Assembly: GCA_947447825.1 (NCBI GenBank)
Contig: CANFLL010000018.1
Span: 1-53,270 of the forward strand
Length of the DNA: 53,270 nt
Source of the DNA: Chitinophagaceae bacterium
Lineage (GTDB): Bacteria > Bacteroidota > Bacteroidia > Chitinophagales > Chitinophagaceae
Direction of reading: 5' to 3'
Shown: piece by piece, positions 7,670-52,974 of the stretch
Layout of the letters: each line of letters starts with the position of its first letter
Numbering within the stretch: the first letter of the stretch is position 1
Position numbers and translations under genes: made by a program
The notes under the pieces: model-generated
What the model was told of the DNA's origin: nothing
The model's database searches: none
What the model saw: only the letters and a program-made list of their open reading frames with translations

Positions 7670-7942
7670 CACACATACCAAATATGTCTTCACACATACC
7701 ATATATGTCTTCACGCTTACCATATATGTCTTCACACATACCATATATATCTTCACGCTTACCATATATGTCTTCACACATACCATATATGTATTCACAC
7801 ATACCATATATGTATTCACACATACCAAATATGTCTTCACACATACCATATATATCTTCACACATACCAAATATGTCTTTACACATACCAAATATGTCTT
7901 CACACATACCAAATATGCCTTCACGCTTACCAAACATGTCTT
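7670..7942. repeat. 21-bp tandem array A (13 units)
   Basis: Thirteen consecutive 21-bp units of the type cacacataccatatatgtc+tt, followed by a partial fourteenth. Variants are cacgctta for cacacata, aaatatg for atatatg, and atctt or gtatt for gtctt. Because 21 is seven codons, heptapeptide frames stay open in several frames on both strands (for example SHIPYMS on the plus strand). Unit differences mostly change the amino acid in that frame, which argues against a conserved protein. It lies between the kinase and the dcw cluster. Confidence 0.95.
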
Positions 7943-8164
7943 CACACCTAAGTAGCATTGCCTTGAACCCTCAATAAATATCTCTCAAAAACCGAAAACC
8001 AACCCAAAACTCCCCTTCTTTCATTCATTATAATAAAAAACAGCGTTTCCTCCCCACTTTTTACCACCAATTAATTGACAATCCACCTTTAACGCCAACT
8101 TTTATTTCACATCAAAAGGGTGCAGTTGTTAATAAGGTAGCCATATACTAACATTAATTCACGG

Positions 8165-8173
8165 TTATCCACA
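8165..8173 (+). promoter_or_regulatory. DnaA box (perfect consensus)
   Basis: TTATCCACA matches the TTATNCACA DnaA-box consensus exactly. Its partner in opposite orientation is at 8257-8265, about 83 bp away across an AT-rich stretch. Isolated DnaA boxes occur by chance, but two perfect ones this close are less expected. Confidence 0.6.
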
Positions 8174-8256
8174 GGTAATCAACAAAAAATATTTACCAGA
8201 TTTAATCTAAATGGGCTATAATCTAATACTGCAAAGCTTTTTAGCCTAAAAGTGTA

Positions 8257-8265
8257 TGTGGATAA
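8257..8265 (-). promoter_or_regulatory. DnaA box (perfect consensus, inverted)
   Basis: TGTGGATAA on the plus strand is TTATCCACA on the minus strand. It faces the box at 8165-8173. It is about 87 bp before the mraZ start and 28 bp before the MraZ-type repeats, so DnaA bound here could affect dcw transcription. Confidence 0.6.
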
Positions 8266-8292
8266 TAAAAAGAGCTGATTTAGGACTTACTA

Positions 8293-8332
8293 GTGGGAAA
8301 ATGTGTTCTTTTGTGTCATAATGTGTTATTTT
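8293..8332 (+). promoter_or_regulatory. Putative MraZ operator: four GTG repeats at 10-bp spacing
   Basis: GTG occurs at 8293, 8303, 8313 and 8323, exactly 10 bp apart: GTGGGAAAAT, GTGTTCTTTT, GTGTCATAAT, GTGTTATTTT. MraZ proteins bind direct repeats with about 10-bp periodicity (TGGG-type in E. coli, AAAGTG[T/G] type in mollicutes). The array ends 20 bp before the mraZ ATG. Autoregulation of the dcw cluster by MraZ is inferred from this match and position. Confidence 0.7.
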
Positions 8333-8351
8333 TACCATCAAATTATCTAAA

Positions 8352-8798
8352 ATGATGAATTTTCATGGTGAATATGAGGCAACAATAGATGCGAAAGGTC
8401 GCTTCTTGTTGCCTGGTGCCCTGAAAAAACAGTTAGATGAAGGTGAAACAAAGTTTATGTTGGCAAGAGGATTCGAAAGATGTATTACCCTTTACCCAAT
8501 GAAAACATGGAACGGAATAATGGAAAGATTTAGTAAGCTAAATCAATTTGACCCCAAGGTTAGGCAATTTACCCGTCAGTTTTTGGGAGGAGCCACAGAA
8601 ATAGAATTAGACTCTGCAGGAAGAATGTTGATGCCAGCTTCTTTTAAGGAGTATGGAACACTAGGAAAAGATGTAATTATTGCCGCAGTATTAGACAAGT
8701 TTGAAATATGGGATGCTGTGAAATATAAAAAGCTCTTTGAAGAAGTTTCTCCTAATGAGTTTAGCAATCTAGCGCAAGAAGTAATGGTAGGGTTTTAA
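8352..8798 (+). CDS. mraZ: MraZ, dcw-cluster transcriptional regulator
   Basis: A 148-residue protein with two SpoVT/AbrB-like MraZ repeats. The first is around MMNFHGEYEATIDAKGRFLLPGAL, the second around ATEIELDSAGRMLMPASFKEY. The D-x-K-G-R and D-x-A-G-R signatures are the usual paired motifs. MraZ forms a ring oligomer that binds repeats upstream of its own gene and represses the dcw cluster; the four-copy repeat ends 20 bp upstream. The start could be the first or second of two adjacent ATGs. It is the first gene of the cluster, 32 bp before rsmH. Length and both repeats are intact. Confidence 0.95.
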   Translation: MMNFHGEYEATIDAKGRFLLPGALKKQLDEGETKFMLARGFERCITLYPMKTWNGIMERFSKLNQFDPKVRQFTRQFLGGATEIELDSAGRMLMPASFKEYGTLGKDVIIAAVLDKFEIWDAVKYKKLFEEVSPNEFSNLAQEVMVGF

Positions 8799-8830
8799 TA
8801 AAAAAGATAGATCATTAATATATTTTCAAA

Positions 8831-9793
8831 TTGAATGAAACAAAGCTTATGAGAAAAGAGGAAAATCATTCAATAGATAGTGTTATTGGTTCCGATTATC
8901 ATGTTCCAGTTTTATATGAAGAGGTACTTGAGGGATTGAATATTAAGCCTGATGGAATATATGTCGATTGCACTTTTGGAGGTGGTGGTCATAGTAAAGG
9001 GATTTTAGAAAGACTCGGTAAAAAAGGAAGGCTGATTGCTTTCGATCAGGATGCAGATGCTATTAATAATCTCCCAAAAGATGAGCGGATAACATTTGTT
9101 CCCGAAAACTTTCGCCACTTGCAACGCTTTCTTCGTTTACATAAAGTGACAAAAGTGGATGGATTGCTGGCAGATTTAGGCGTGAGTAGTCACCAGTTTG
9201 ATGAAGGTGATCGTGGTTTTTCTATACGCTTTGATGGACCAATGGATATGCGGATGGATAACAGGCAGATACTTACCGCAGAAAACGTTATTGCTAATTA
9301 CTCGGAAAGTGAATTGCATAAGTTGTTTGAAAAATATGGGGAAGTAAGTAACTCTAAAACATTGGCAAAACACATTGTTGATGCACGGAAGCAAGCTCAG
9401 GTTAAAACCATCCTCCAATTTAAAACAATGATTGGAGCAGTTATTAAAGGGAATCCTAATAAATATCTGGCGCAAGTGTTTCAGGCATTAAGAATTGAAG
9501 TGAATGCCGAAATGGACGTATTGAAAGAGATGCTTTTGCAACTGAACGAAGTGGTGAAACCAGAGGGAAGAGCGGCAATCATCACCTTTCACTCACTGGA
9601 AGATCGGTTGGTGAAACAGTTTTTTAAGACTGGAAAATTTGAAGAAGAAGTGTATGACAATCCATTTGTTCAGTTTGAAAAAGAACAAATCTGGAAATTG
9701 GTTAATAAAAAACCAATTCTAGCCACAGATGCTGAACTGAAACAGAACAGAAGAAGCCGAAGTGCTAAACTTAGGGTTGCTGAAAGAATGTAA
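8831..9793 (+). CDS. rsmH: 16S rRNA (cytosine-1402-N4) methyltransferase RsmH
   Basis: SAM-dependent methyltransferase that N4-methylates C1402 of 16S rRNA near the P site (formerly mraW). The SAM-binding motif VDCTFGGGGHSKGIL follows the typical YHVPVLYEEVLEGL start, with LADLGVSSHQFD in the middle and the terminal signatures AAIITFHSLEDRLVKQFFK and RSRSAKLRVAER. The open frame begins with TTG at 8831; an in-frame ATG at 8849 is an alternative, and both lie before the conserved part, so the N-terminal extension (about 20 residues) is uncertain. The length of 320 residues is normal. Second gene of the dcw cluster. Confidence 0.96.
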   Translation: MNETKLMRKEENHSIDSVIGSDYHVPVLYEEVLEGLNIKPDGIYVDCTFGGGGHSKGILERLGKKGRLIAFDQDADAINNLPKDERITFVPENFRHLQRFLRLHKVTKVDGLLADLGVSSHQFDEGDRGFSIRFDGPMDMRMDNRQILTAENVIANYSESELHKLFEKYGEVSNSKTLAKHIVDARKQAQVKTILQFKTMIGAVIKGNPNKYLAQVFQALRIEVNAEMDVLKEMLLQLNEVVKPEGRAAIITFHSLEDRLVKQFFKTGKFEEEVYDNPFVQFEKEQIWKLVNKKPILATDAELKQNRRSRSAKLRVAERM

Positions 9794-9847
9794 GCAAGTG
9801 GTAAGTGGTGAGTTTGAAGTTGAGTGAATAAATAATAAAGGAAACTA

Positions 9848-10201
9848 ATGGCAGAGGAAGTAAAAGGAACTACAAAGGGAAGCACTAAAACTAGCAAGCT
9901 AAAAGGGCTAGGGGAGCTTTTGTCTGGTGGTAAATGGATAACCCAAAACCTGAACTTCTTTTTGTTTTTAACAGGGCTTGCAGTTTTGTACATTGCTAAT
10001 GGACACATGGCCGATAAAACAATTCGGAACATAAACAAAACACAACAAGAGATTAAAGATTTGCAATTTGAATACAAGACAGTAAAGAGTGAAGTGATGT
10101 ACAAAAGCGAGGAGGCACAGGTAGAAAAAGCAGCTGAACCATTGGGACTGAAGATTACTAAAGATGTACCCGTGAGGTTGCAACCCGAAGAAAGGAAGTA
10201 G
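9848..10201 (+). CDS. ftsL: FtsL-like cell division protein
   Basis: A 117-residue bitopic membrane protein in the ftsL position between rsmH and ftsI. A charged N-terminal tail of about 35 residues is followed by one membrane segment (NLNFFLFLTGLAVLYIANGHM, about 37-57) and a periplasmic part predicted to be coiled coil (KTIRNINKTQQEIKDLQFEY and on). FtsL with its partners links the ring to FtsI/FtsW and activates septal synthesis. Sequence conservation of FtsL is low, so the call rests on topology, size, coiled coil and position. It matches the type described as FtsL-like in Bacteroidota. Confidence 0.85.
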   Translation: MAEEVKGTTKGSTKTSKLKGLGELLSGGKWITQNLNFFLFLTGLAVLYIANGHMADKTIRNINKTQQEIKDLQFEYKTVKSEVMYKSEEAQVEKAAEPLGLKITKDVPVRLQPEERK

Positions 10202-10302
10202 TTCGTTGTAAGTTTTAGGTTATACGTTAAAATAAGAAACGTACGGTCTAAGACACAAATCTACAACGAAAAACGTAGCACTTAAAACGTATAAAAAGAA
10301 GA

Positions 10303-12408
10303 ATGGAAGTTAAAAAAGACATATTATGGAGAGTATATCTCAGCTACCTGCTAATAGTGGGTATATGTCTTTTCATATTTGGCAAAGCAGTTTACATCCA
10401 ACAGTTTCAAGGACATTATTGGAGAAGTATGAGCGACAGCCTTCACCAAAAAATTGAAGAAGTAGATCCTGAAAGAGGTACCATCTATAGCGAAGATGGC
10501 AAAATGCTGAGTACTAGCATTCCTCAATTTGATATATATATAGACTTTGCGGCAGATGGATTAAGAGAAAAAAGTGGTGTTCGGTTTAGAGACAATCTTG
10601 ATAGCCTTAGTTATCGTTTGGCTAATTTATTTAAAGACAATACCGATGGCGAGTATAAAAGAATGTTGCTTCACGGGTACAAAACAAAAGATAGATATTT
10701 CTTATTAAAAAAGAATATCTCCTATCGTCAGTATCAGGAGCTAAAAACTTTTCCGCTTGTCCGTTTGGGAAGAAATAAGAGTGGCTTTATTGCTAGTTTA
10801 AAAACCATCCGACTAAATCCTTACAAGATGTTTGCCTACAGAACCATTGGTTTGGATAGAGATTCATCTAAAGTAGGTTTAGAGCGCACTTACGATACTT
10901 TATTGAAAGGTGTAAGTGGCAGAAGATTGGTTCGTTACATTGCTGGAGGTGTGAGTGTACCCGTTGAAGATTATGAAATTGAGCCTAAAAATGGAAAAGA
11001 CATCGTGACCACTTTGGATGTGTTTATTCAGGAAGTAGCCGAAAATGCACTCCTTAAAATGATGACTAAAAACGAAGCAGAACATGGTTGTGCGATTGTT
11101 TTGGAAACAAAAACAGGCAAAATTAGAGCGATGGCTAATTTGGGCAGAAGACCAGATGGCTCTTATGCAGAGGATTTTAACTATGCAATTAGTCCTTCAG
11201 AACCTGGTTCAACTTTTAAGTTGGCAACCATGATGAGCTTATTAGAAGATAAGAAAATCAATCTGGAAAGTCAAGTCAATTTGAATGGTGGCGTTTGGCA
11301 AATCAACGGACAAACTGTTTATGATTCCGAAAAACACGGAAGAATGTTGGTAACTGCCAAACAGGCTTTTGAATTGAGTAGCAATGTGGGGTTGGCAAAA
11401 ATGGCTTATGCTGGTTATGCTCGAACCCCAAATCAGTTCATCAACCATCTTCACCTAATGAAACTCGATACACTAACAGGTATTGATATTACTGGCGAAC
11501 GAGGTTCGATTATTCATAAGCCAGGAAGTAGATTTTGGAATGCGAATAGTTTGCCATGGATGGCTTTTGGTTATAACATAGAAGTAACGCCTTTGCAAAC
11601 AGCTACCTTGTATAATGCAGTGGCTAATAACGGCAAAATGATGCGTCCTTTTCTATTAAGTGCTGTTAAATATGAAGGTGAAGTAATCGATGCCAGATCT
11701 CCATTCACAACGGTTGAACAGCTATGCACAGAGGAAACAATTAAACAGCTTCATGCTTGTTTAGAAGGTGTTTGTACAGAAGGAACAGCCGCCGAATTGT
11801 TTAAAAACAACGCTTACAAAGTGGCAGGAAAAACTGGTACTGCTTTGGTGGCTAATGGAAGTAAGGGCTATGAGGATATGATTTATCAAAGCTCTTTTGC
11901 AGGCTATTTTCCTGCCGAAGACCCACAGTTTACCTGTGTGGTGGTCATTAAAAACAAGCCTCATGCCGTTGAATTTTATGGGGCAAGGGTTGCTGGTCCA
12001 GTGTTTAAGGAAATATCAGACAGACTGTACACCACTTATGTTCGCCAGATTAACTATGCGCCTCCTACTGTTAAAAATGATAGTAGCAACTTTCAATATG
12101 ATGGGCTGAAACAAGACTTAACCCAAGTGTTGAACACTGTAAAGATTCCTTACCGTGATGATGGAAAAAATGTGGAGGAACTAGTAAACATGAGTGGCAA
12201 TAAATATAGTACCACACTAAACGAAAAGATGATGGCTAGCAGTTTTATGCCTTCATTGAGAGGATTAGGGTTAAAAGATGCAGTTGTGTTGTGTGAGGGG
12301 ATGGGATTGAAGGTAAATGTAAAAGGAAAAGGAAGGGTGGTTGCACAATCTATTTCGGCTGGGCAATCTGTTGGTCATGGGCAACTTTTAAATATTGAAT
12401 TAAACTAA
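10303..12408 (+). CDS. ftsI: Septal transpeptidase FtsI (class B PBP3) with PASTA domain
   Basis: Class B penicillin-binding protein that crosslinks septal peptidoglycan. One N-terminal membrane anchor (about 10-28) is followed by a dimerisation domain with the class-B R-G-T-I-Y motif (EVDPERGTIYSEDG). The transpeptidase domain has all three catalytic motifs: S303-T-F-K (nucleophile S303), S359-S-N and K510-T-G. The last 60 residues (SFMPSLRGLGLKDAVVLCEG and on) form one PASTA domain, a type of C-terminus also seen in other Bacteroidota PBPs and thought to bind wall fragments. 701 residues. It ends one base before murE, so the two are surely cotranscribed. Confidence 0.96.
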   Translation: MEVKKDILWRVYLSYLLIVGICLFIFGKAVYIQQFQGHYWRSMSDSLHQKIEEVDPERGTIYSEDGKMLSTSIPQFDIYIDFAADGLREKSGVRFRDNLDSLSYRLANLFKDNTDGEYKRMLLHGYKTKDRYFLLKKNISYRQYQELKTFPLVRLGRNKSGFIASLKTIRLNPYKMFAYRTIGLDRDSSKVGLERTYDTLLKGVSGRRLVRYIAGGVSVPVEDYEIEPKNGKDIVTTLDVFIQEVAENALLKMMTKNEAEHGCAIVLETKTGKIRAMANLGRRPDGSYAEDFNYAISPSEPGSTFKLATMMSLLEDKKINLESQVNLNGGVWQINGQTVYDSEKHGRMLVTAKQAFELSSNVGLAKMAYAGYARTPNQFINHLHLMKLDTLTGIDITGERGSIIHKPGSRFWNANSLPWMAFGYNIEVTPLQTATLYNAVANNGKMMRPFLLSAVKYEGEVIDARSPFTTVEQLCTEETIKQLHACLEGVCTEGTAAELFKNNAYKVAGKTGTALVANGSKGYEDMIYQSSFAGYFPAEDPQFTCVVVIKNKPHAVEFYGARVAGPVFKEISDRLYTTYVRQINYAPPTVKNDSSNFQYDGLKQDLTQVLNTVKIPYRDDGKNVEELVNMSGNKYSTTLNEKMMASSFMPSLRGLGLKDAVVLCEGMGLKVNVKGKGRVVAQSISAGQSVGHGQLLNIELN

Positions 12409-12409
12409 C

Positions 12410-13873
12410 ATGCAAACACTACAAGACATACTATATAAAGTGCGCTTGAAACAAGTGATAGGCAATACCAATGTTGCGGTAAAATCTATTGCTATCGATA
12501 GCCGTAAGGTTGTTGAAGGTTGTGTGTTTGTGGCTATAAATGGAGTACACAGTGATGGGCATTTATTCATCAATCAATCAATCGCTTCTGGTGCGGTAGC
12601 AATTGTTTGCGAGGTAATTCCTTCTGCAATAAAAGAAGGAATTACTTACATAGAAGTGAAGGATTCTAGTGAAGCTGTTGCCCTGATGGCGCATCAGTTT
12701 TATGGAGAACCTTCTAGGAAAATAAAGTTAGTAGGGGTTACGGGTACTAATGGCAAGACAACCATCGCAACTGTGTTATTTAAACTCTTTACCAAAATGG
12801 GTTATACCTGTGGATTGGTAAGCACTATTCAAAACATAATAGGCAATGAAATAATTCCTGCCACACATACTACACCTGATGCAGTTAGTTTGAATGCATT
12901 GTTGAGTTTGATGGTTGATAAGGATTGCACACACGTTTTTATGGAATGTAGCAGTCATGCCATTCATCAAAATAGGATTGCAGGTTTGCATTTTGCGGGT
13001 GGATTATTTAGCAATATCACACACGACCATCTGGATTATCACAAAACCTTCGATGAATACATATACGTGAAGAAGAAATTCTTTGACGATTTACCATCTA
13101 CGGCTTTTGCCATCACTAATTCGGACGATAAGCGTGGAATGGTGATGTTGCAGAATACGCTTGCTAAAAAATATACTTACAGCCTAAAAACAATGGCTGA
13201 CTTTAAAGGCAAAATCCTTGATAATGCCTTGACTGGTTTGCAAATGTTAGTCAATGACATCGAAGTACATTTTAGGTTAATAGGCGAATTTAATGCCTAC
13301 AACCTTTTAGCAGTATATGGTGCGGCCGTTTGTTTGGAGGTAGATAAACTTCAAGTATTAACTACTTTGAGTATGCTTACTGGTGCTGAAGGTCGTTTCG
13401 ATTATGTGATTAGTAAATCAAGAATAATCGGCATTGTAGATTATGCTCATACGCCTGATGCTTTAGAAAACGTGTTGAGTACCATCAAAAAATTGAGAAA
13501 AGGATACGAACAAGTAATTACAGTTGTGGGCTGTGGTGGTGATAGGGATAAAACAAAAAGACCAATCATGGCACAGACGGCTTGCAACTTGAGCAACAAG
13601 GTTATCCTTACAAGCGATAACCCAAGAAGCGAAGAGATTGCAGACATCTTGAAGGATATGGAAACAGGTTTGGATAGTGCTGCTAAAAGAAAATACCTAG
13701 TCATTGCCGATAGAAAGGAGGCCATTAAAACGGCGGTAAGCTTGGCAAATGAGGACGACATCATTTTGGTGGCAGGAAAAGGGCACGAGAAATATCAGGA
13801 CATCAAGGGCACAAAATTCCCTTTTGATGACAAGGAGATTTTGCGGGAGGTTTTTGAATTATTAGACAAATAA
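12410..13873 (+). CDS. murE: UDP-MurNAc-tripeptide synthetase MurE (meso-DAP type)
   Basis: ATP-dependent ligase that adds the third residue to UDP-MurNAc-L-Ala-D-Glu in the cytoplasm. The P loop is G112-TNGKTT-118, and the Mur-ligase signature YAHTPDALENVL is present. The DNPR motif at 403-406 is the meso-diaminopimelate selector, which predicts a DAP-type wall. 487 residues is normal. It starts one base after the ftsI stop. About 110 bp follow before mraY, containing an AT-rich inverted repeat. Confidence 0.97.
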   Translation: MQTLQDILYKVRLKQVIGNTNVAVKSIAIDSRKVVEGCVFVAINGVHSDGHLFINQSIASGAVAIVCEVIPSAIKEGITYIEVKDSSEAVALMAHQFYGEPSRKIKLVGVTGTNGKTTIATVLFKLFTKMGYTCGLVSTIQNIIGNEIIPATHTTPDAVSLNALLSLMVDKDCTHVFMECSSHAIHQNRIAGLHFAGGLFSNITHDHLDYHKTFDEYIYVKKKFFDDLPSTAFAITNSDDKRGMVMLQNTLAKKYTYSLKTMADFKGKILDNALTGLQMLVNDIEVHFRLIGEFNAYNLLAVYGAAVCLEVDKLQVLTTLSMLTGAEGRFDYVISKSRIIGIVDYAHTPDALENVLSTIKKLRKGYEQVITVVGCGGDRDKTKRPIMAQTACNLSNKVILTSDNPRSEEIADILKDMETGLDSAAKRKYLVIADRKEAIKTAVSLANEDDIILVAGKGHEKYQDIKGTKFPFDDKEILREVFELLDK

Positions 13874-13890
13874 TTATTTTAAATTCTGAG

Positions 13891-13966
13891 TTTTAAATTT
13901 TGAATTATTTAGAGCGAGAAACTTTTAAGAATATGAGCTATAATTTAAAATTCAAAATTTAAAATT
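13891..13966. repeat. AT-rich inverted repeat between murE and mraY
   Basis: TTTTAAATTTTGAATTA near 13891-13907 is matched in reverse complement by ATTCAAAATTTAAAAT near 13950-13965, separated by about 43 bp. A near-copy lies between murD and ftsW at 17040-17125. This AAATTTTGAATT palindrome looks like a dispersed element. Confidence 0.6.
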
Positions 13967-13984
13967 AATAATAACAACAAAAGG

Positions 13985-15298
13985 ATGCTGTATTACTTTT
14001 TTATCTGGTTAAAACAAAATTTCCACGTGGCTGGTCTTGGGGTGTTTCAATATATCACCTTTAGGGCGGCTTTGGCAATTGTTTTATCCTTAATTATCAC
14101 CACGGTTTTTGGCAAACAGGTGATTCTTTATCTGCAAAAAAAACAGATAGGAGAAAGTGTGCGTGAACTTGGCTTGGCTGGTGAGAATTTAAAAAAAGGA
14201 ACGCCAACAATGGGGGGCATCATCATTTTGATGGGCATTTTAATTCCCACTTTATTGTTTGCCAATCTACATAAAACCTACATACGCCTGATGATTCTTA
14301 CTACTGTTTGGTTGGGCATTATTGGTTTTATTGATGACTATCTAAAAATTTCGGCTAAGAAGAAGGCATTGGCTAGTGGTGGTTCTTACAAGAAAAAAGA
14401 TAGCGATGGCTTGGCAGGAAATTTTAAAATATTTGGACAAATAGGGCTTGGAATCATCATTGGCAGTACCCTCTATTTTGCTAAAAGTGTGGAAGTGCAA
14501 CGCGAAATTTATTCTCCACAACATGTAATAGCAGATTCTGTTTTGAGAAAAGGAGAAAAGCTTTTGGGTGATACAATTAAGGTTTTTGATGGAAAAGTAC
14601 ACCACTTTGCAAGGGTTAGAACGCCAATTACAACCATCCCTTTTGTAAAAAATCATGAGTTCAATTATAGTAAACTGATTAGTTGGATTGCGCCAGGTGC
14701 AGAACAGTTTACGTGGCTAATATACATTCTGGCAGTCACGTTTATCATCACGGCCGTATCTAATGGCGCCAATTTAACGGATGGTTTGGATGGTTTGGCA
14801 GCAGGCGTGAGTGCATTGATAGGCATCTGTTTGGGCGTATTTGTGTACGTTAGTAGCAATGTACGTTTTGCCGAATACCTCAACATTATGTACATCCCTA
14901 ACTCTGCCGAACTAAGCATTTTTGTGGGAGCTTTTGTGGGGGCTTGCATCGGTTTTTTATGGTATAATACTTTTCCTGCACAAGTTTTCATGGGCGATAC
15001 TGGCAGTCTTGCCCTAGGAGGAATTATTGCTTCGCTAGCCATCATCATCAGAAAAGAATTATTAATACCCATCTTTTGCTGCATCTTCTTAGTTGAGAAT
15101 TTAAGTGTGGTTATTCAGGTAAGTTATTTTAAATACACCAAGAAAAAATATGGTGAAGGAAGACGGATTTTCTTGATGAGCCCTTTGCATCATCACTATC
15201 AGAAAAAAGGATTTCATGAAAGTAAAATAGCCATGAGGTTTTGGATTGTAACGTTGATATGTGTGGTTTTATCCATCATAACGCTCAAGATTAGGTAA
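13985..15298 (+). CDS. mraY: Phospho-MurNAc-pentapeptide transferase MraY
   Basis: Integral membrane enzyme that moves phospho-MurNAc-pentapeptide from UDP to undecaprenyl phosphate, making lipid I. About ten membrane helices. Conserved motifs are [21 protein letters not shown] (catalytic Asp pair), [25 protein letters not shown] and the histidine-rich [12 protein letters not shown]. At 437 residues it is about 75 longer than E. coli MraY. The extra sequence lies mainly in a loop around residues 165-225 ([15 protein letters not shown] and on) between transmembrane helices, a feature known for Bacteroidota. The stop TAA overlaps an ATG (TAATG) that opens a 22-codon frame into array B. Confidence 0.97.
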
Positions 15299-15309
15299 TG
15301 GAAGGACAT

Positions 15310-15346
15310 TTACTTGATGAAGAAAACAGTTTTCTTCATCAAGTAA
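15310..15346. repeat. 37-bp perfect palindrome directly after mraY
   Basis: TTACTTGATGAAGAAAAC (15310-15327) and its exact reverse complement (15329-15346) flank a single central A. The arm is the same sequence as the repeat unit of array B (ttgatgaagaaaac), so the palindrome looks like one unit joined to an inverted copy. As RNA it would form a long hairpin between mraY and murD. Confidence 0.85.
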
Positions 15347-15376
15347 TTGAAAAAAGTCATCAATAAAATGATTTTA

Positions 15377-15520
15377 TTGATGGAGAAAATGAAATTCTTG
15401 ATGAAGATAACCATTTTATTGATGAAGAAAACGACTTTCTTGATGAAGAAAATCGCTTTCTTGATGAAGAAAATGAATTACTTGATAAAGAAAATGACTT
15501 TATTGATAAAGAAAATAGGA
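15377..15520. repeat. 21-bp tandem array B (6 full units plus one partial)
   Basis: Units of ttgatgaagaaaatgacttt+c with a 21-bp period: six complete units from 15377 to 15502 and a truncated seventh to about 15520. On the plus strand they read as acidic heptads, L-D-E-E-N-D-F. The same frame begins with the ATG overlapping the mraY stop but is broken by TAA at 15364-15366. Together with the palindrome and the hairpin at 15521-15593 it fills the 320-bp mraY-murD gap. Confidence 0.92.
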
Positions 15521-15593
15521 TTTCTCAGTGCCTCTGTGGCAATAGAAATCCCACGAAGTGGAAAATAATAGTTGCCACAGAGGCACTGAGAAA
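15521..15593. repeat. 22-bp-arm inverted repeat before murD
   Basis: A perfect 22-bp arm (15521-15542, core CTCAGTGCCTCTGTGGCAA) recurs in reverse complement at 15572-15593, around a 29-bp loop that itself contains a short ATCCCACGAAGTGG hairpin. It resembles dispersed Bacteroidota palindromes with a CCACAGAGGCACTGAG core. It would form a strong RNA hairpin 25 bp before the murD start. Confidence 0.85.
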
Positions 15594-15618
15594 CAGAAAG
15601 GAGAAAAAAGAAGAGGAT

Positions 15619-19653: not shown

Positions 19654-19695
19654 GAAAAAGTAGTTCTTTAAAATAATTGGTTGATTAAACAGGAA

Positions 19696-19884
19696 GGTTT
19701 AGCCACGAAACTGATACGTTTTGCAACGGAACTGAAAGGTTTGGTGACTAAACGTAAAGGTTTAATGACGGAACGTATCCATTTAGCGACGAAACATAAA
19801 GGTTTTGCCGCTAAACAGATACGTTTAATGACGTAACAGACCCGTTATGTGACTAAACAGACCCGTTTAGTCGTAAAACAGGTC
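19696..19884. repeat. 21-bp tandem array C (9 units)
   Basis: Nine 21-bp units of the form ggtttaatgacgaaacataa+a (variants begin cgttt or cattt and end gata, gacc or gtaa). They are more diverged than in arrays A and E, but the phase is kept without indels. A frame from TTG at 19681 reads heptads of the type G-L-A-T-K-x-K for about 46 codons. It occupies the middle of the 375-bp murG-murC gap; nothing else recognisable lies in the remainder. Confidence 0.88.
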
Positions 19885-20007
19885 TGTCTGTTGAGAGAAT
19901 TGAGTGAGTAGGGATTGAATCGTATCAGCTAAAAAAGAAAGAGCAATTGTATAGGATTCAATACAGCAAAGGATTTTAGGCATTTATTAAGAAAAGAAAG
20001 AATAATA

Positions 20008-29504: not shown

Positions 29505-29513
29505 GTTTTGAAA

Positions 29514-29681
29514 GTAAACTCGGTGGGGTTTAGAGTAAACTCACTGGAGTTTAGAGTAAACTCACTGGAGTTTAGAGTAAACTCACTGGGGTTTAGAGTA
29601 AACTCACCGGGGTTAAAAGTAAACTCACTGGAGTTTAAAGCAAACTCACTGGGGTTTAAAGTAAACTCGAAGGAATCTAAA
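29514..29681. repeat. 21-bp tandem array D (8 units)
   Basis: Eight units of gtaaactcactggagtttag+a beginning 10 bp after the stop of the LRR gene. They read as heptads V-N-S-L-E-F-R in a 63-codon frame that starts with a TTG at 29508. Differences between units mostly change the encoded residue. Confidence 0.93.
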
Positions 29682-29739
29682 GTAAAATGGAGAGAATAGA
29701 AAGTGTTCTCTCTTAATAAAATTGATTAATACTGGAATT

Positions 29740-36653: not shown

Positions 36654-36744
36654 ATGAAAGTTTGATGCACCCTTCCATATTTATTATTGCTATTTAAATT
36701 TGGGTAATCATGATTAGCCACATTCTCGCTTGCTGAGAGTTCAG

Positions 36745-36908
36745 TTGTAACTATATCAGGGAAATCTGAGTATAATTGTGTTCTATTATTACCAGATTTC
36801 AGAAATCTAAGCACAATTGTCTCTGATTATAACTAGATTTAGGAAATCTGAGTACAATTATGTTCGGTTATAACTAGATTTCGAGAATCTAAGCACAATT
36901 GTCTCCAT
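36745..36908. repeat. 41-bp tandem array with alternating unit types (4 units)
   Basis: Units start at 36745, 36786, 36827 and 36868. Each carries a palindromic core of the type AGATTTnnnnAAATCT and a CACAATTGTG-like box. Units 1 and 3 share gggaaatctgagta/ggaaatctgagta, and units 2 and 4 share aatctaagcacaattgtctc, so there is a higher-order 82-bp period. It is upstream of the rpmE2 promoter. The rest of the 36654-37086 spacer holds a second hairpin after the esterase gene and nothing else I can name. Confidence 0.85.
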
Positions 36909-37039
36909 TTGCTACTAGAATCCCAAAAGATAGAGCCAAATCTGGGCACATTTTCCCACAATGCATATTATCTGTTTTCAAAAACAAAGAAATTTTATGG
37001 TAAAAAAGTTGGGCATCAGCAGATTTTTTGCTTTGACTA

Positions 37040-46181: not shown

Positions 46182-46475
46182 TTATAAAGGTTTTTTACAT
46201 TTAGTTTTTACATCTTTTCCAAAATCTTTTCCTGGCTTAAAGCCTGCAATGTACATGGCAGGGATATTTATTGCAACATTCCTCTTTACTATTCTTCCCA
46301 CTTTGGCTGCTCTTTTTTTGGGAAAGAAAGTACCAAAACCACGTAAATAAACACCCTCTCCTTCAATAACAGCATTTTTAATTTCCGCAAAAAGAGCTTC
46401 AATCGTAATCAAAACATCTACTTTTGGAATACCAGTTTTATCACCGATTAATGTTATTATTTCAGACTTGCGCAT
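46182..46475 (-). CDS. HU/IHF-family DNA-binding protein
   Basis: A 97-residue DNA-bending protein. The helical dimerisation part MRKSEIITLIGDKTGIPKVD is followed by the beta-arm region GVYLRGFGTFFPKKRAAKVG, INIPAMYIAGFKPGKDF. The GFGTF motif and the C-terminal phosphate-contact FKPGK are typical. The tip motif RNP is replaced by a divergent sequence (NVAINIPA). In this position beside mutY it is commonly annotated as an integration host factor-like subunit. The Lys-rich end (KTKCKKPL) is unusual but short. Confidence 0.93.
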   Translation of the reverse strand: MRKSEIITLIGDKTGIPKVDVLITIEALFAEIKNAVIEGEGVYLRGFGTFFPKKRAAKVGRIVKRNVAINIPAMYIAGFKPGKDFGKDVKTKCKKPL

Positions 46476-46638: not shown

Positions 46639-47688
46639 ATGAAACAACAGGTTACTGAGTTATTAATGAATTGGCATACAAATTTTAATAATAGGCAGAT
46701 GCCTTGGAAGGGCGAAAAAGATCCTTATAAAATTTGGCTAAGTGAGATTATTTTACAACAAACCAGAGTTGAACAAGGGTTATCTTACTATCAACGATTC
46801 ATTGCAACCTATCCCACCATTGCAGATTTAGCCCAAGCTAAAGATGAAGATGTTTTTAAATTGTGGGAAGGATTGGGTTATTATAATAGATGTAAAAACC
46901 TTTTGCATACGGCAAGAATAATTTATTATGAACTTGATGGAAAGTTCCCCAATAATTATGACACCATCGTTGCCCTAAAAGGAATTGGTCCCTACACTGC
47001 TGCTGCAATTGCTTCGTTTGCCTTTAATTTACCCTATGCAGTGGTGGATGGAAATGTGTTTAGGGTACTTTCCCGTTTGTTCGCCATTGATACGCCCATA
47101 GATAGTACCGAAGGAAAACAGCAATTCGCTTTGCTTGCACAGGAGGTGTTAGATAAAAAAAATGCTGCACTCTTCAATCAGGCTATTATGGATTTTGGTG
47201 CAACAGTTTGCAAACCCACCAATCCCCAATGCAATTCATGTCACCTGAAAGAAATATGTACTGGTTTTAATAATGCGTTGGTGAATAGGTTGCCAGTAAA
47301 AGAAAAGGTATTACTCAAGAAAAATAGGTGGTTTTATTATTTCATCCTGCAACACGAAGAAACAGTTTTGGTGGAGAAAAGAACTTCTCGTGATATATGG
47401 GAAAACCTCTATGAGTTTTATTTGCTAGAAACCACTGAACAAATTATTTGGAAGGAAGCAACCTTGCAAGAATGGCTTAATCAACAATTTGGCATTGAGC
47501 GGGCAACTATCCATAGTGTTTCGCCGCTGCAAAAGCAACAACTTACCCATCAATCAATAAAAGGACAATTTATTAAAGTTAACCTCACCTCAATACCCCA
47601 AAATCTTTTAAAAGCCCAATGGCAGCCCTTGAAAGATTTGCAGCAATTGGCTTTTCCAAAGTTTATTAATCAATATCTGGAGCTGTAG
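46639..47688 (+). CDS. mutY: A/G-specific adenine glycosylase MutY
   Basis: Base-excision enzyme that removes adenine opposite 8-oxoguanine. HhH-GPD core: LQQTRVEQGLSYYQRF (catalytic-site helix with QQT-R), WEGLGYYNRCKNL, the helix-hairpin-helix LKGIGPYTAAAIASFAF, and the catalytic aspartate in AVVDGNVFRVLSR. The 4Fe-4S cluster is C-x6-C-x2-C-x5-C (CKPTNPQC, NSC, HLKEIC). The C-terminal MutT-like domain for 8-oxoG recognition follows from about 230. 349 residues is normal. It diverges from the HU gene. Confidence 0.97.
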   Translation: MKQQVTELLMNWHTNFNNRQMPWKGEKDPYKIWLSEIILQQTRVEQGLSYYQRFIATYPTIADLAQAKDEDVFKLWEGLGYYNRCKNLLHTARIIYYELDGKFPNNYDTIVALKGIGPYTAAAIASFAFNLPYAVVDGNVFRVLSRLFAIDTPIDSTEGKQQFALLAQEVLDKKNAALFNQAIMDFGATVCKPTNPQCNSCHLKEICTGFNNALVNRLPVKEKVLLKKNRWFYYFILQHEETVLVEKRTSRDIWENLYEFYLLETTEQIIWKEATLQEWLNQQFGIERATIHSVSPLQKQQLTHQSIKGQFIKVNLTSIPQNLLKAQWQPLKDLQQLAFPKFINQYLEL

Positions 47689-47830
47689 ATTCTAGTAATG
47701 AAATAAACTAGGAATCCATTTCTCACAAGCCATTTTAGTTAATGGAAAATATGTTAAGAGATTGAAAGGAATAAGTTAAAAAGACACTGTTTTGAAGTGA
47801 AAATTACTCAATGAGTCTCTACCAATTACC

Positions 47831-48586
47831 CTACAGAATATACTTGTTAAACAATTGGCCTTCTATTTCATACAGCTTAGCGTCTTTCAATCCGTATCCT
47901 TTTAGCTTTTGCATATACTCTTGTGTTAATTCTTTTTTTGTTGTTTTTTTACCTTTTGTAGGAGGCGTTATTTCGGTTTCATTAAAGTTTGCCAGCTCTA
48001 CTTTTGTGGCAAACCACGTGGTGTTATACCTTGGTATCGCCAACCCTAATATCATTCCAGGCAAACCTTGCACAGCTTCGGGGCCTGCGGGCATTACAAA
48101 TTGTTCACAATAAAAAGCAACAACATAAACGGTATCGTATATCCTTCCAATGGCTTTTCGGCATTCATAACCAGCTATTGTTCTTGTCTCCTTGGTAATC
48201 CGCCATTTAATGTTACTTAAACTATCCTTTAGCACATAATCTTGCATAATAATAGATTTTTTAACCACCGTTTGCTTGGTTTTATAATCAATAAAAATAC
48301 TATTGTCTCCATTGGGCATACTAAAACGCATTCCAGCACCTTGAGAATTATCATGATCAAATTTGTACAGCGACATACCATTGGCATACATAAAACTAAA
48401 GTAACTAATATTGTATTTAGGAATTCTTGATTTGTATTCATCAACGTTTCCTCCTTCTAAATCACGATGTTGATTCACCTTTTTCTCAAACTCTATTTTT
48501 ACTTTAGTAATGTAATCCTGTGCTGTTACTGTTTCAATCATTGAAATAATGATAAATAGCGGCAACCAAATATTTTTGTTTTTCAT
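47831..48586 (-). CDS. GLPGLI family exported protein
   Basis: 251 residues with a signal peptide (MKNKNIWLPLFIIISMIETV, then TAQ). The family signature is seen as LPGMILGLAIPRY (equivalent of GLPGLI), preceded by ECRKAIGRIYDTVYVVAFYC. The function of the family is unknown. It starts 4 bp after the stop of the TonB-receptor-like gene, a pairing that is common in Bacteroidota and suggests that both act on the same outer-membrane process. Confidence 0.9.
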   Translation of the reverse strand: MKNKNIWLPLFIIISMIETVTAQDYITKVKIEFEKKVNQHRDLEGGNVDEYKSRIPKYNISYFSFMYANGMSLYKFDHDNSQGAGMRFSMPNGDNSIFIDYKTKQTVVKKSIIMQDYVLKDSLSNIKWRITKETRTIAGYECRKAIGRIYDTVYVVAFYCEQFVMPAGPEAVQGLPGMILGLAIPRYNTTWFATKVELANFNETEITPPTKGKKTTKKELTQEYMQKLKGYGLKDAKLYEIEGQLFNKYIL

Positions 48587-48590
48587 ATTC

Positions 48591-51365
48591 TTATTTGTGT
48601 GTATGTGAAAAATTCCATGTTGCTGTTAGTAGAAAATATCTCGGAATATAATTGCTGGTAGTTTCTGACAGATAATTTCCGCTGGCATATCTCGAGTAAC
48701 CAGTTGCCTGATTTAAAATATCATTGACTGAAAATTTTGTTTCCAACGTGCCAGAAGTGTTCCATTTTTTGGTTATGTAGGCATTCCATTTAAAAACATT
48801 ATTACTGGTGCTGAAAGAGCGGTTTGCTGGTTGAAATTTCAAATCCGCATCTGAGCTTAATTCTATCTTCCAAGGAAAATAGACGGTTCCTGTGATGGTG
48901 TAATTATGCGATAAATTAGTTCTTGAGCCAATGTTACCAGAACTAGACACAGAATTTGTGTAGTTGACGGTAGAGTTAACACCAAAATAGTATTTATCGG
49001 GCTTATTGTAACTAAAGCTTGGCCCCAAACCATAATTCCAGTTTTTATCTGTATTGGTTACTTTATTAACAATGCTTACCGAAGTAGACATATAAACATT
49101 TCCTGATAGCCCCCACTTAAATCCTGTTTTGCCTATTGATCGATTAAAGCTAATGTATGATGATATGTTAGAATTACCATTTTTGTTGGTGTACTTAACT
49201 ACAGACTTATTATAGGCTGCATAATCTGTTGTGTTAATGATTTCATTTTGTGTTAAATAATAGTTTATCCCGCAAAACAAACTTTGACCCGATAAAAAAT
49301 TATAGTCGAAAAAGTTTGCAGAGAGCGAATGGGTAAATGAAGGAACCAAATTAGGATTCCCTACAAATTCAGTTAAGGAGTTGCTTTTATCCTTCAATGG
49401 TTGCAACTCATTAATGGAAGGCTGCCTTGTTCTGCCACTATAATTAAAGCTTAAACTTCTACTCATTTTTAAAGGTAGTGTAAGGCTAGCCTGTGGAAAA
49501 AAGTTAGTGAAATGGCGATTGTTGGTGGTAGTTGCAACAGCCGTTTGCTTTAGATCTGTAAATGAAAGCTTCCCACCTGCCGAGAAGTTGAATTTCTTTT
49601 TCACAAATTGAAGCATCAACCCTGGCATGTGCGATGTAGTTACATAATGATAACTGCTGCTTAAACTATCTACAAAAAAATTGTAATGTGCAGTAGAATC
49701 CTTACTAAAAACTGTTCTGTCTTTTTCTAAGTCAGTCAATTTGATTGCGTAGGAAATTTCCAGATTCAATGCTTTCGTTAATGGCTCCGTATAAGCCAGC
49801 TTGCCCGCATAAGCCTTTGTGGTGGTAAGGTTTGTTTGCTTTTGATTCGGGTTTTCGGTGGTGGAAGAATGTGTGGTGGAATCGAAAAGCTGATTAGCAG
49901 AAGCCGTAGTTAGTTCATTAGAGCCATCATCAAAGCTTTGCTGCAAGTTCAACGAAAGTGTCCTTCTTTCTTTCCTAAATTTTTGTCTCCAAAGTACCCC
50001 AATGTTTAAGTGCTTGCCATTTCCCACCGTGCTATCATTGCGCGTGCTAGTGTTTAAGAAGCTTCCGTCTTTGCCGTTTTTTGTTTCTGAGTAACTATTC
50101 TGTGTGCTATTTTTATCAACCTGACTTCCTTGTATGGTTACTTTAATAGATGCAAATGAATCCAAAGCCGCATCGAATGTGCCTCCCATTTTATGGTCTA
50201 TCTGCCAAGAGTTGGTGTTGCGGTAGCTGCTGCTTACCCTAACTGAACTATCAGGAAGTATTTTTGTGTTGTTACTCTTTTGCCAACCATCAGTAACTAA
50301 TTTTTTATACCGATAATTTCCATTTACTTTTTGTTTGGCTTCATGCCATTTGTCCGAAAATTGTGCGCCAGCATAAGTACTTGTAGGCAACCCAGAACCG
50401 TAAAACGTACCCGACTCATAGCTATCGTTACCAAAAAGTAAGGTCCCGCCATCATCATCTATTCTTTCCAAATCGTTACTTATATACTGAGAACGGTCTT
50501 GGCTACTAAGCCCCACCTGTCCAGTATTCGAGGCAATGCCAAACACACTAACTTTCAGGTTATGGCTAAACTTATTAAACATACCCTCTTCGTCATAAAA
50601 GTTTTTTAGGTTACTACCGCCCGAAACTTTCCCAAAATATCCCTGCTTACTGTTTTCTTTTAGTTTTATGTTGATTGTTTTTGTATGCTTACCATCATCA
50701 ATACCCGTAAAAGCAGATTGGTCACTTTTTTTATTAAATACCTGAACCTTATCTACACTCTTTGCTTGCAAATACTTTGTTGCTAACAAAGGATCATCGC
50801 CAAAAAACTCATCTCCATCCACCAATACGGTGGTTACGTCCTCACCTTGGGCTTTTATTTTGCCATCTCTGCTTACTTCAATGCCCGGCAATCGTTTTAA
50901 TAAGTCTTCCAGCGTTGCTCCTTGTTTGGTAGCAAAACTATCTGCCTTGTATTCAAGCGTATCTCCCTTCATTCTGATAGCCGCAGCCGAAAGTACAATT
51001 ACCTCTTGCAGCAAGGCAACCCGAGACGTCATATTAATGTTGCCAATGTTTTTTGTAGTAGTGTCTTGCAGATTAACTTTCTGAATATAGTCGGCAGCTT
51101 GCGGAGCAGTAATCATTAAAGTGTAATTGCCTGCATGTAATCCTTCCATCAAAAAGCTACCATCAACTTGACTACGGGTAAAGGTTACTAAGCTAGAATC
51201 GTTGTTATTAATTAATGCCACTACAGCATATTCCAGTTTTTTTCTGATGCTTGTATCGGTTACTACGCCCTTAATACTCGCCTTTTGAGAATATCCCAGA
51301 ACCGATACACCCATAAATAATAGGACAAAAAACAGGTTGAACAAATAGGAAATATTCTTTTTCAA
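48591..51365 (-). CDS. TonB-receptor-like outer membrane beta-barrel protein
   Basis: 924 residues. The start codon is TTG (51365), supported by the signal peptide MKKNISYLFNLFFVLLFMGV, SVLGYSQ. A carboxypeptidase-regulatory-like domain (about 28-112, ASIKGVVTDTSIRKKLEYAV) leads into a plug-like domain (LEDLLKRLPGIEVSRDGKIK, TTVLVDGDEFFGDDPLLATK), then a long barrel rich in aromatic and Ser/Thr residues (outer membrane protein beta-barrel type 3). It lacks a clear SusD partner, so it is a stand-alone transporter or surface protein. It forms an operon with the GLPGLI gene. Substrate unknown. Confidence 0.9.
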   Translation of the reverse strand: MKKNISYLFNLFFVLLFMGVSVLGYSQKASIKGVVTDTSIRKKLEYAVVALINNNDSSLVTFTRSQVDGSFLMEGLHAGNYTLMITAPQAADYIQKVNLQDTTTKNIGNINMTSRVALLQEVIVLSAAAIRMKGDTLEYKADSFATKQGATLEDLLKRLPGIEVSRDGKIKAQGEDVTTVLVDGDEFFGDDPLLATKYLQAKSVDKVQVFNKKSDQSAFTGIDDGKHTKTINIKLKENSKQGYFGKVSGGSNLKNFYDEEGMFNKFSHNLKVSVFGIASNTGQVGLSSQDRSQYISNDLERIDDDGGTLLFGNDSYESGTFYGSGLPTSTYAGAQFSDKWHEAKQKVNGNYRYKKLVTDGWQKSNNTKILPDSSVRVSSSYRNTNSWQIDHKMGGTFDAALDSFASIKVTIQGSQVDKNSTQNSYSETKNGKDGSFLNTSTRNDSTVGNGKHLNIGVLWRQKFRKERRTLSLNLQQSFDDGSNELTTASANQLFDSTTHSSTTENPNQKQTNLTTTKAYAGKLAYTEPLTKALNLEISYAIKLTDLEKDRTVFSKDSTAHYNFFVDSLSSSYHYVTTSHMPGLMLQFVKKKFNFSAGGKLSFTDLKQTAVATTTNNRHFTNFFPQASLTLPLKMSRSLSFNYSGRTRQPSINELQPLKDKSNSLTEFVGNPNLVPSFTHSLSANFFDYNFLSGQSLFCGINYYLTQNEIINTTDYAAYNKSVVKYTNKNGNSNISSYISFNRSIGKTGFKWGLSGNVYMSTSVSIVNKVTNTDKNWNYGLGPSFSYNKPDKYYFGVNSTVNYTNSVSSSGNIGSRTNLSHNYTITGTVYFPWKIELSSDADLKFQPANRSFSTSNNVFKWNAYITKKWNTSGTLETKFSVNDILNQATGYSRYASGNYLSETTSNYIPRYFLLTATWNFSHTHK

Positions 51366-51640
51366 GGCAATACTTTTATAATTGAAGGTTTAAAATGACA
51401 ATGAATCAAACGGCTAATCAATTAGGTTATTCAATAGGCAGCAAAAACATTTTTTATATTTTTCATAATATGCGTTTGCAAAACTGTCTTTTCAATAACA
51501 AAACAAGCAACGAAGATAATGGAATGGGCATTTGAAAGGATGAATTGCAAAAATAAAGGAGGTATTAGAGAAATTCATTTTCCTCATTCCCTCTTTTTAA
51601 AGTTGTAAGTAATAAGTCAAAAGTTGAAAGTCATAAGTGG
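51366..51640. other. Gene-free spacer upstream of the TonB-receptor-like gene
   Basis: AT-rich DNA containing the unseen promoter of the receptor gene. From about 51600 a series of short direct repeats begins (aaagtcataagt/aaagttgaaagtc type) that continues into the duplicated terminator block. No coding frame or strong motif seen. Confidence 0.5.
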
Positions 51641-51696
51641 AAAGTCATAAGTTGAAAGTCAAAAGTCTTAAACAAGTTGAATGTTAGTCAAAATAA

Positions 51697-51738
51697 AAAG
51701 AGGCAGTTAGGAAGATAATACTTCTCAACTGCCTCTTT
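51697..51738 (-). terminator. Terminator hairpin, copy 1
   Basis: AAAGAGGCAGTT (51697-51708) and AACTGCCTCTTT (51727-51738), a 12-bp perfect stem with an 18-nt loop. On the minus strand it is followed by TTATTTTG, on the plus strand by CTTTTATA. It could act in both directions. Confidence 0.75.
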
Positions 51739-51851
51739 CTTTTATACTCCCAGACTTTCGACTCTTAACTTTTAACTGTTGACTGTAATAAATCATAAGT
51801 CATGAGTTGAAAGTCAAAAGTCTTACACAAGTTGAATGTTAGTCAAAATAA

Positions 51852-51893
51852 AAAGAGGCAGTTAGGATGATAATACTTCTCAACTGCCTCTTT
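51852..51893 (-). terminator. Terminator hairpin, copy 2
   Basis: Same stem AAAGAGGCAGTT/AACTGCCTCTTT (51852-51863, 51882-51893). It is the first hairpin reached by a minus-strand transcript leaving the gene at 51992, about 100 bp after its stop. The stretch 51920-51985 between is made of taaccactaa/taataac simple repeats. Confidence 0.75.
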
Positions 51894-51991
51894 CTTTTAT
51901 ACGTTACTCCCGATTCCTATTTTTAACTAACCACTAATAACTAATAACTAACCACTAACCACTAACCACTAATATCTAACCACTAATAACC

Positions 51992-52684
51992 CTACATTCC
52001 CCTAACCGTTACACTCACTACGTTGCTAGCCGTGCCTACTTCTGCACCTTGATACAAAAAAATGAATACATATTCCCAAACAACAGCCGTTCCTGCTGGT
52101 GGGAGTTCTGCGTTATCTAAATAAGTGGGGTTTACTGCCTTATCATATTTCAATAATCCTTTGCCATCACCACTATTTTTGTATATCTGTGCTGCATCAA
52201 ATTTGCCCTTTGGATATTTTAAAAATGGGTGACCAGTATGCAGTGCTATTGTAACCACCGGTTTACCATTTTTTGGTACAAAAGGGGTTATTACCGCTTC
52301 AATGCCCAAATCGGTACCGATAGTTGTGGTATAATTGGGGCTTCTTTTGCAAGCCGCCGATATGGCTGCAAACCTACCCCTCATGCCGGGGTGTACCACT
52401 GCCGGCGCCACAACTATAGCAGGCGTACTTGGCGGAGTGGCTGCCACACCAGCATCAGCCCCATTATACAATTCATCGCCAAACTTCACCCAGCTATGCC
52501 CATATTTTGCAAATACATCCTTTTCATCTATTGCCCATCCCAAATAGGCTGTATCTTTTGCCTGAGCGGCAATAACATCTTCTGCAATACTTAGTGTAAC
52601 TTTATATCCACCTATTTTAGAATCGAAAGTTACTTTTTGACTATGAAATTCTTCTATATTCTGTTTGATAAATCCAGTTGGCAT
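51992..52684 (-). CDS. Protein of unknown function
   Basis: 230 residues, family not recognised. The start is ATG at 52684, with no signal peptide. The first 75 residues look helical (FIKQNIEEFHSQKVTFDSKI, EDVIAAQAKDTAYLGWAIDE). An Ala/Pro-rich linker follows (AATPPSTPAIVVAPAVV), then a charged turn (HPGMRGRFAAISAACKR) and a beta-rich C-terminus (PVVTIALHTGHPFLKYPKGK, WEYVFIFLYQGAEVGTASNV, VSVTVRGM) reminiscent of a fibronectin-III-like end. This helix-linker-beta layout resembles a group of hypothetical proteins of environmental bacteria. Its own terminator pair lies downstream and array E upstream. Confidence 0.75.
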   Translation of the reverse strand: MPTGFIKQNIEEFHSQKVTFDSKIGGYKVTLSIAEDVIAAQAKDTAYLGWAIDEKDVFAKYGHSWVKFGDELYNGADAGVAATPPSTPAIVVAPAVVHPGMRGRFAAISAACKRSPNYTTTIGTDLGIEAVITPFVPKNGKPVVTIALHTGHPFLKYPKGKFDAAQIYKNSGDGKGLLKYDKAVNPTYLDNAELPPAGTAVVWEYVFIFLYQGAEVGTASNVVSVTVRGM

Positions 52685-52764
52685 ACTATATTTTTTTTGA
52701 ATTAATTAAAAATTGATTGAGAAAAATTTTAAATCCCTGTAGCCTACCTTTTAGGCGTCTGCCT

Positions 52765-52974
52765 AATTGCTTTAGGCATCGGACTAATTGCTTTAGGCAT
52801 CGGACTAATTGCTTTAGGCATCGGACTAATTGCTTTAGGCATCGGACTAATTGCCTTAGGCATCGGCCTAATTGATTTAGGCATCGGCCTAATTGCTTTA
52901 GGCATCGGCCTAATTGATTTAGGCATCGGACTAATTGATTTAGGCGTCGGACTAATTGTTCTAGGCACAGGCCA
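52765..52974. repeat. 21-bp tandem array E (10 units)
   Basis: Ten units of aattgctttaggcatcggac+t; the first four are identical, the others vary at a few positions (gat for gct, gcct for gact, gcgtc for gcatc). A partial unit flanks each side. On the minus strand it reads as heptads S-P-M-P-K-A-I. It lies about 80 bp upstream of the gene at 52684, on its 5' side. Confidence 0.95.

Follow-up and report, generated by a model that had tools for sequence, protein, structure and literature searches.

Dispersed 21-bp tandem arrays of many sequence families form a genus-restricted class of short intergenic satellites in Chitinophagaceae

Introduction

Plasmid iterons and the repeats of ParR/parC centromeres are short, helix-phased direct repeats in which sequence varies while spacing is kept, and each replicon carries one array, next to a rep or par gene. 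On chromosomes, repetitive extragenic palindromes (REPs) are described, in passages of one account, as palindromic units in extragenic clusters, more than 100 per genome, lineage-specific and with tandem forms; they are tied to the gene of a REP-associated tyrosine transposase (RAYT) and alternate in orientation within bacterial interspersed mosaic elements (BIMEs), which bind integration host factor (IHF) and gyrase (PMC2817692). A second account gives REPs as palindromes of 20-40 bp belonging to a few super-families (PMC3733652). Here we analyze five tandem arrays, A to E, in a 53,270-bp stretch of DNA from a Chitinophagaceae bacterium (contig CANFLL010000018.1; G000:C18:1-53270 in our numbering, hereafter the window). 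We assign them to a class of short satellites that is scattered through intergenic DNA, comprises many sequence families and is restricted to one genus.

Results

A sequence-only reading of the window had listed five intergenic arrays with a period of exactly 21 bp. Both points were confirmed. Tandem Repeats Finder (TRF), which tolerates indels, gave period 21 and 0% indels in all rows of A-E; an ungapped lag scan, which by itself disfavours indels, placed all five at lag 21; and the arrays hold register when printed 21 letters per row. All five lie outside called genes. A sixth array, absent from the earlier list, has a longer period.

Array A: 7669..7947 (TRF, 13.3 copies) or 7647-7983 (lag scan); 21-bp unit TCACACATACCATATATGTCT.
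Array B: 15308..15525 (TRF 15365-15516, 7.2 copies; lag scan 15308-15516); 21-bp unit AAAATGACTTTCTTGATGAAG.
Array C: 19677..19894 (lag scan; TRF in three rows, 19697 to 19869, with 68-80% matches); degenerate 21-bp unit.
Array D: 29508..29704 (lag scan; TRF 29513-29668, 7.4 copies); 21-bp unit AGAGTAAACTCACTGGAGTTT.
Array E: 52750..52999 (lag scan; TRF 52750-52986, 11.3 copies); 21-bp unit TTTAGGCATCGGNCTAATTGC.
Sixth array: 36739..36928 (TRF and lag scan); period 41, family GAAATCT...AGATTTC.

The same period dominates in a sample of the genome. Our sample combined the window with 60 stretches of 20 kb, amounting to 1.253 Mb or 27% of the 4.65-Mb assembly (187 contigs); it consists mostly of contig starts and much of contig 1 and is not strictly random. 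TRF detected 123 intergenic arrays of at least 2.5 copies, the limit used in this survey. Sixty had a period between 15 and 40 bp, and 57 of these were at exactly 21, with two at 22 and one at 24; the remaining intergenic arrays were chiefly 7-, 8- and 14-bp repeats and arrays with periods of 41-44, 62-65 and 81-85. In the period-21 group the mean match was 80%, and 42 of 57 arrays had 0% indels. Eighteen TRF arrays were classed as coding, four at period 21 and one at 63.

In the lag scan the period is the smallest lag whose score is no less than 70% of the maximum; 7- and 14-bp repeats are thereby counted apart. It found 94 lattice arrays (53 at 21, 3 at 22, 29 at 41-43 and 9 at 62-87), which extrapolates to about 350 per genome. 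A handful of arrays with lattice periods were assigned to coding DNA: the first 453 kb had one of period 126, and the following 800 kb had two of period 21 and one each of 42 and 63. Markov-2 resampling of 8 of 21 loci of this genome (193 kb) gave no array of any period by lag scan. The sequence-only reading had proposed a shared mechanism or function and had set a genome-wide 21-bp peak with many unit families as a test. The peak is present in the 27% sample and supports a shared mechanism or function; the original observation was right and is stronger than was stated.

Array length fell between 180 and 240 bp in 42 of the 94, and among the first 34 arrays the median was 209 bp at period 21 and 216 bp at period 41-44. 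The arrays total about 20 kb, or 9% of the sampled DNA outside called genes, with a G+C content of 37.2% compared to 30.5% in the rest of that DNA. Periods of 41, 43, 44, 65, 83 and 85 bp occurred besides 21 in the lag scan. For 41 arrays of period 41-87 (39 from this genome, 2 from the genus), the mean match was 0.40 at lag 21, compared to 0.24-0.29 at other lags from 12 to 30; the best lag was 21 in 17 arrays, 22 in 5 and some other value in 19. Given the elevated match at lag 21, many of the longer repeats are higher-order repeats of the 21-bp lattice.

Of the 13 genomes of the genus that were sampled, 11 had lattice arrays: the source genome, G000, and 10 of 12 others by lag scan (G001, G002, G003, G004, G006, G007, G009, G010, G011 and G012). 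G009, G010 and G012 had periods of 41, 42 or 81 only, and no lattice array turned up in G005 or G008, for which the samples were small (31 and 22 kb, respectively). In G004, 439 kb held 17 intergenic arrays of period 21 and another 13 with periods of 22-64. In contrast, a lag scan of 79 loci from other genera (1.42 Mb) gave a marginal 75-bp array (L043) as its single case at lag 21, along with an array at 40 and another, in coding DNA, at 63; with TRF at a minimum of 2.5 copies, period 21 accounted for 1 of the 14 arrays between 15 and 40. Without the copy limit, TRF reported period 21 in 13 of 111 arrays from 80 loci, coding and intergenic taken together, none with three or more copies; two-copy 21-bp short repeats do occur outside the genus. 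Ten stretches from five genomes of the same family (187 kb) held no lattice array. L017, once counted at period 21, was rejected as a 7-bp repeat and an artefact of a short lag list. Viral contigs gave no match to one 32-base unit pattern and plasmids none to array D. Searches of titles and abstracts in the open-licence literature found no description of such arrays, which does not show their absence from print.

To group arrays by sequence, 110 were compared (96 from this genome and 14 from the genus). Fifty-four fell into 17 families, some members of which are orthologues or neighbours, and 56 remained single; one column-permuted database gave no hits in the family search. The earlier description of the units as unrelated thus holds inside the window, where no two of A-E share a family, and breaks down beyond it. 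For every one of A-E there are relatives at other places in this genome: A is related to L095:17895, C to L089:16904 and L185:15686, and D to L168:7350 and L180:49, as the sixth array is to L091:6041 and L175:15674. L168 and L180 have common flanks, and array D is without them. Array E and its surroundings align with a copy on contig C27 over 939 bp at 82%, and the duplicated segment (window 52330-53266) includes the 5' part of an open reading frame (ORF) at 51992-52684 that has no Pfam match. An early impression that related arrays are mutually inverted vanished with more data (41 plus and 43 minus best pairs).

In the TGAGTC/GACTCA family, spread has taken place within an element: the array forms the interior of a sequence of about 700 bp that resembles a miniature inverted-repeat transposable element (MITE), has terminal inverted repeats (TIRs) of about 21 bp and is found in about 40 places in G000 (e.g., L192:1413-2119). 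Allowing up to 3 mismatches, its TIR pattern matched 54 times in G000 and the reversed pattern once; no autonomous partner was seen by eye among the TIR matches, the only search made for one. The array at L167:12417 also sits between TIR-like repeats and has flanks in common with L165:188, and inverted matches scoring at least 14 flanked 9 of 89 arrays, compared to 6 of 267 mismatched flank pairs. These data would suit a view of the arrays as mobile-element modules, either internal transposase sites of MITEs or BIME-like elements mobilized by RAYT. Against it, 80 of the 89 arrays had no flanking inverted match, and flanks of at least 30 bp are not common to any pair in 10 of the 17 families, while some other families have them in a portion of their members. 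Moreover, Y1_Tnp matches (5 in G000, 0-9 in 28 relatives) do not track the arrays, and a Y1/RAYT expansion was rejected. As an account of the class, mobility is improbable, and the earlier statement that the arrays are not one spreading element needs the amendment that families do spread, in one case inside a TIR-bounded element.

Two further proposals were also rejected. For a reverse-transcriptase generator, G000 and 7 of the other 12 genomes of the genus yielded no RVT_1 match, and HU/IHF genes show no expansion, with 2 in G000 and 1-4 in its relatives; one of the two in G000 is in the window (46209-46475, minus strand; PF00216). Separately, a period-85 array at L103:7138-8271 is flanked by inverted repeats of about 150 bp, and L184:18979-19414, a related array that is likewise 436 bp long, has no flanks in common with it.

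Many units are dyad-symmetric. Tested against column-permuted units (60 permutations per array), the dyad reached P ≤ 0.05 in 41 of 86 arrays of this genome (27 of 56 at period 21-22 and 14 of 30 at 41-44) and in 4 of 14 genus arrays, but in none of 8 controls that were 14-bp simple sequence repeats (SSRs). In the window the palindrome was significant in B (TTTCTT-GATG-AAGAAA, P 0.003), C (type GTTTNGnnnCNAAAC, P 0.003), D (AAACTC-ACTG-GAGTTT, P 0.007) and E (TTAGGC-ATCG-GCCTAA, P 0.04), and not in A (P 0.17) or the sixth array (P 0.21). Across 31 dyad arrays, the arms were more conserved than other columns (0.226, compared to 0.135 on permuted arrays; Wilcoxon P 0.001), and one G001 array kept CTCAnnTGAG variants every 21 bp while the intervening sequence varied. 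A second dyad 21 bp from the first was not above the null within 41-44-bp units. Two-sided Watson-Crick changes within 45 dyad arrays numbered 66, compared to 38.5 ± 4.5 in shuffles, a null that ignores unit relatedness. At paired positions in 45 arrays, G-T mismatches occupied 85 cells and A-C mismatches 84, and because these counts are equal the dyads fit the symmetry of duplex DNA better than that of RNA.

Orthologous gaps show sequence turnover at kept sites. The mraY-murD gap, which holds array B, carries related 21-bp arrays in G000, G004, G003 and G001 and a short one in G002; G009 has a period-42 array there outside the B family, and none was called in G006, G008, G010, G011 or G012. 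The murG-murC gap, the site of array C, holds arrays in G000, G004 and G006, with none called in G001, G008, G011 or G012. No array was called in gap A of G004, where the alignment is poor and a clean empty site is not claimed. Between G000 and G004, the B arrays differ by 59 substitutions in 218 bp with 0 indels. L170:13401-13690, a period-42 array with a long palindrome, is also indel-free in G004, its gap having 21 substitutions in 350 aligned bp and 0 indels. For comparison, 25 gaps lacking a 21/42 array, of which some contain 7- or 14-bp repeats, gave 43 indels per 795 substitutions. When 29 copies of the MITE-like element were compared with one reference, 10 of 39 indels in the array were multiples of 21 bp, compared to 0 of 96 outside it.

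The window contains the dcw cluster and a type IX secretion system (T9SS) sorting domain, and the named relatives of its MraY are Sediminibacterium, Hydrotalea and many metagenome-assembled genomes of Chitinophagaceae; by both lines the DNA belongs to this family or near it. Array neighbours include cell-wall and division genes: A lies between a PAS/histidine-kinase ORF and an ORF in the mraZ position, B between mraY and murD, C between murG and murC, and E 5' of the minus-strand ORF 51992-52684. Among genus members the murD-ftsW gap measures 61, 82, 103 or 124 bp (88 in G002) and the murE-mraY gap 114 or 177 bp; these lengths often differ by multiples of 21, and an array was called in murD-ftsW only in G002. 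Immediately past array B (about 15517-15600) is an inverted repeat, CTCAGTGCCTCTGTGGC...GCCACAGAGGCACTGAG, that is missing from G004. The MurD and MurC N-termini (15619 and 20008) carry a glycine-rich extension with NSPLG-type repeats, as if a short repeat were read into the gene starts. The contig end, 53122-53270, is identical to the first 149 bp of contig C126, probably an assembly break.

From the lag scan or TRF start, the distance to the upstream stop codon is 22-44 bp for A, 10-67 for B, 45-65 for C and 4-9 for D, and it had been suggested that arrays follow stop codons. As a rule this failed. Called genes flanked 80 of the 94 arrays on both sides, 46 codirectionally, 22 divergently and 12 convergently, and these classes match the background of gaps of at least 250 bp (164, 79 and 35 of 278, array gaps included).

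The proposal that the arrays are serial heptapeptide ORFs did no better. Seven codons make 21 bp, and ORFs of 104-111 aa span A and E. Even so, 42 of 53 period-21 arrays had at least one open frame, compared to 41.3 expected after column permutation; periods other than 21 occur; and the corresponding frame of B has stops in G001 and G003, as read from the alignment. Coding of this kind was rejected, and we give it next to no credence.

Discussion

Dimer-binding platforms fit best with the fixed phase, the dyad tendency, the near strand symmetry, the lack of orientation preference and the sequence turnover at kept sites. We therefore favour, tentatively, a reading of the arrays as phased platforms of operator dyads, REP/BIME- or iteron-like and locked at two helical turns. 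An array typically comprises about 8-11 head-to-tail units, often dyad-symmetric, with a 21-bp step. In this view a dimeric DNA-binding protein would recognize each dyad in the manner of an operator; given the step, the dyads would all face the same side of the helix, allowing about ten dimers to bind cooperatively and bend, wrap or insulate some 200 bp. Gain and loss of units goes by multiples of 21 bp, and families move between loci, in one case within a MITE-like element. What was observed directly is the period, the length, the intergenic site, the families, the dyad tendency, the lack of a G-T over A-C excess and the spread in the genus; from there we infer protein binding, cooperativity and function. 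Phased binding sites were among the readings first offered for the window, and they remain plausible and the best reading because the units tend to dyads with more conserved arms. A generating process is a candidate as well.

A bolder version, which we think rather unlikely, is that phase and symmetry themselves define the element class, with about 350 sites per genome of about ten units each, at two helical turns, kept in the genus while their sequences turn over. Such sites might wrap or insulate DNA for a protein that reads symmetry or shape, as a bacterial analogue of positioned nucleoprotein particles.

Several results weigh against binding platforms. About half of the arrays, A included, lack a significant dyad. 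To serve so many dyad families, either a large number of proteins or a single one of low sequence selectivity would be required, and no binding or generating protein was identified, a partner gene not having been sought systematically. The indel-free phase is suggestive, but it concerns two orthologous loci and is not proof. The trimmed alignment of C has gaps of 15, 4 and 17 bases, although a wider one crosses the array gap-free, and among the MITE copies indels other than multiples of 21 were only mildly rarer in the array (29 per 676 substitutions, compared to 96 per 1537). At locus B, compensatory change across four species (17 cells) was not above shuffles (14.4; 94/500), in a test of 32 of 35 units with three degenerate ones left out. 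Finally, G-T and A-C mismatches were mildly uneven between arrays when counted by cells (chi2 35.1, 22 arrays), and RNA pairing may occur in some arrays.

This last point, with the stems of about 6 bp and 4-base loops that the B, D and E dyads would form, is what speaks for RNA hairpin arrays in untranslated RNA. Counted by distinct changes, the unevenness disappears (12.4, 17 arrays), and there is no G-T excess overall. Divergent gaps are as frequent as in the background, and the window had no match to the RNA families described in Rfam at gathering scores. We regard RNA hairpins as highly improbable.

Selection for a curved segment of about 200 bp, in which any 21-bp repeat bends in phase, would explain a fixed phase with free sequence. 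A wedge model gave a bend slightly greater than that after column permutation (mean z 0.47, with P<0.05 in 9 of 76 arrays and above 0.95 in 3 of 76). The effect is weak and leaves the dyads unexplained, and curvature alone is a very unlikely answer.

The serious rival is non-functional satellite turnover, which we hold to be nearly as likely as binding platforms. In this neutral process, a lineage-specific habit of replication or repair would duplicate about 21 bp and homogenize the units, palindromes would arise by hairpin template switching, and the length of about 200 bp would reflect a balance of gain and loss. It would account for a fixed period with free sequence, for indels in multiples of 21 confined to the array of the MITE copies, for flank orientation without preference, for the differences between species in array presence and sequence at the same gap, and for the half of the arrays lacking a significant dyad. 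On the other side stand the conserved dyad arms and the absence of indels in two orthologous pairs, and bacterial slippage with a constant step of 21 bp is not known to us.

Comparison with known systems

Tandem repeats usually share a sequence or range in period, whereas here one period is held across many unrelated sequences in one genus. A single kept period suggests that the DNA here obeys a physical rule, helical phase. As protein platforms, the arrays would amount to a system that organizes or insulates the chromosome and exists in hundreds of natural variants; as products of mutation, they would reveal replication with a constant step of 21 bp, something equally unexplained.

Like REPs and BIMEs as those passages describe them, the arrays are extragenic, clustered and numerous (94 in 27% of the genome). 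They differ in having 17 families and 56 singles united by a period rather than a sequence, and in head-to-tail units. Palindromes, a trait of REPs, are significant in 41 of 86 arrays of this genome, and Y1_Tnp is present in G000 (5 matches), although its counts across genomes do not follow the arrays. The MITEs with internal tandem repeats are matched by one family, the element of about 700 bp with its array inside, but TIRs are not a feature of the class. Heptanucleotide and other bacterial SSRs are likewise intergenic and tandem, and both this genome and other genera have repeats of 7, 8 and 14 bp. The 21-bp arrays exceed these in length, are often dyadic and are nearly confined to one genus. 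The helical phase of iterons is matched by the 57 of 60 arrays at exactly 21 bp, but where an iteron or parC array is one per replicon, we estimate about 350 arrays per genome here.

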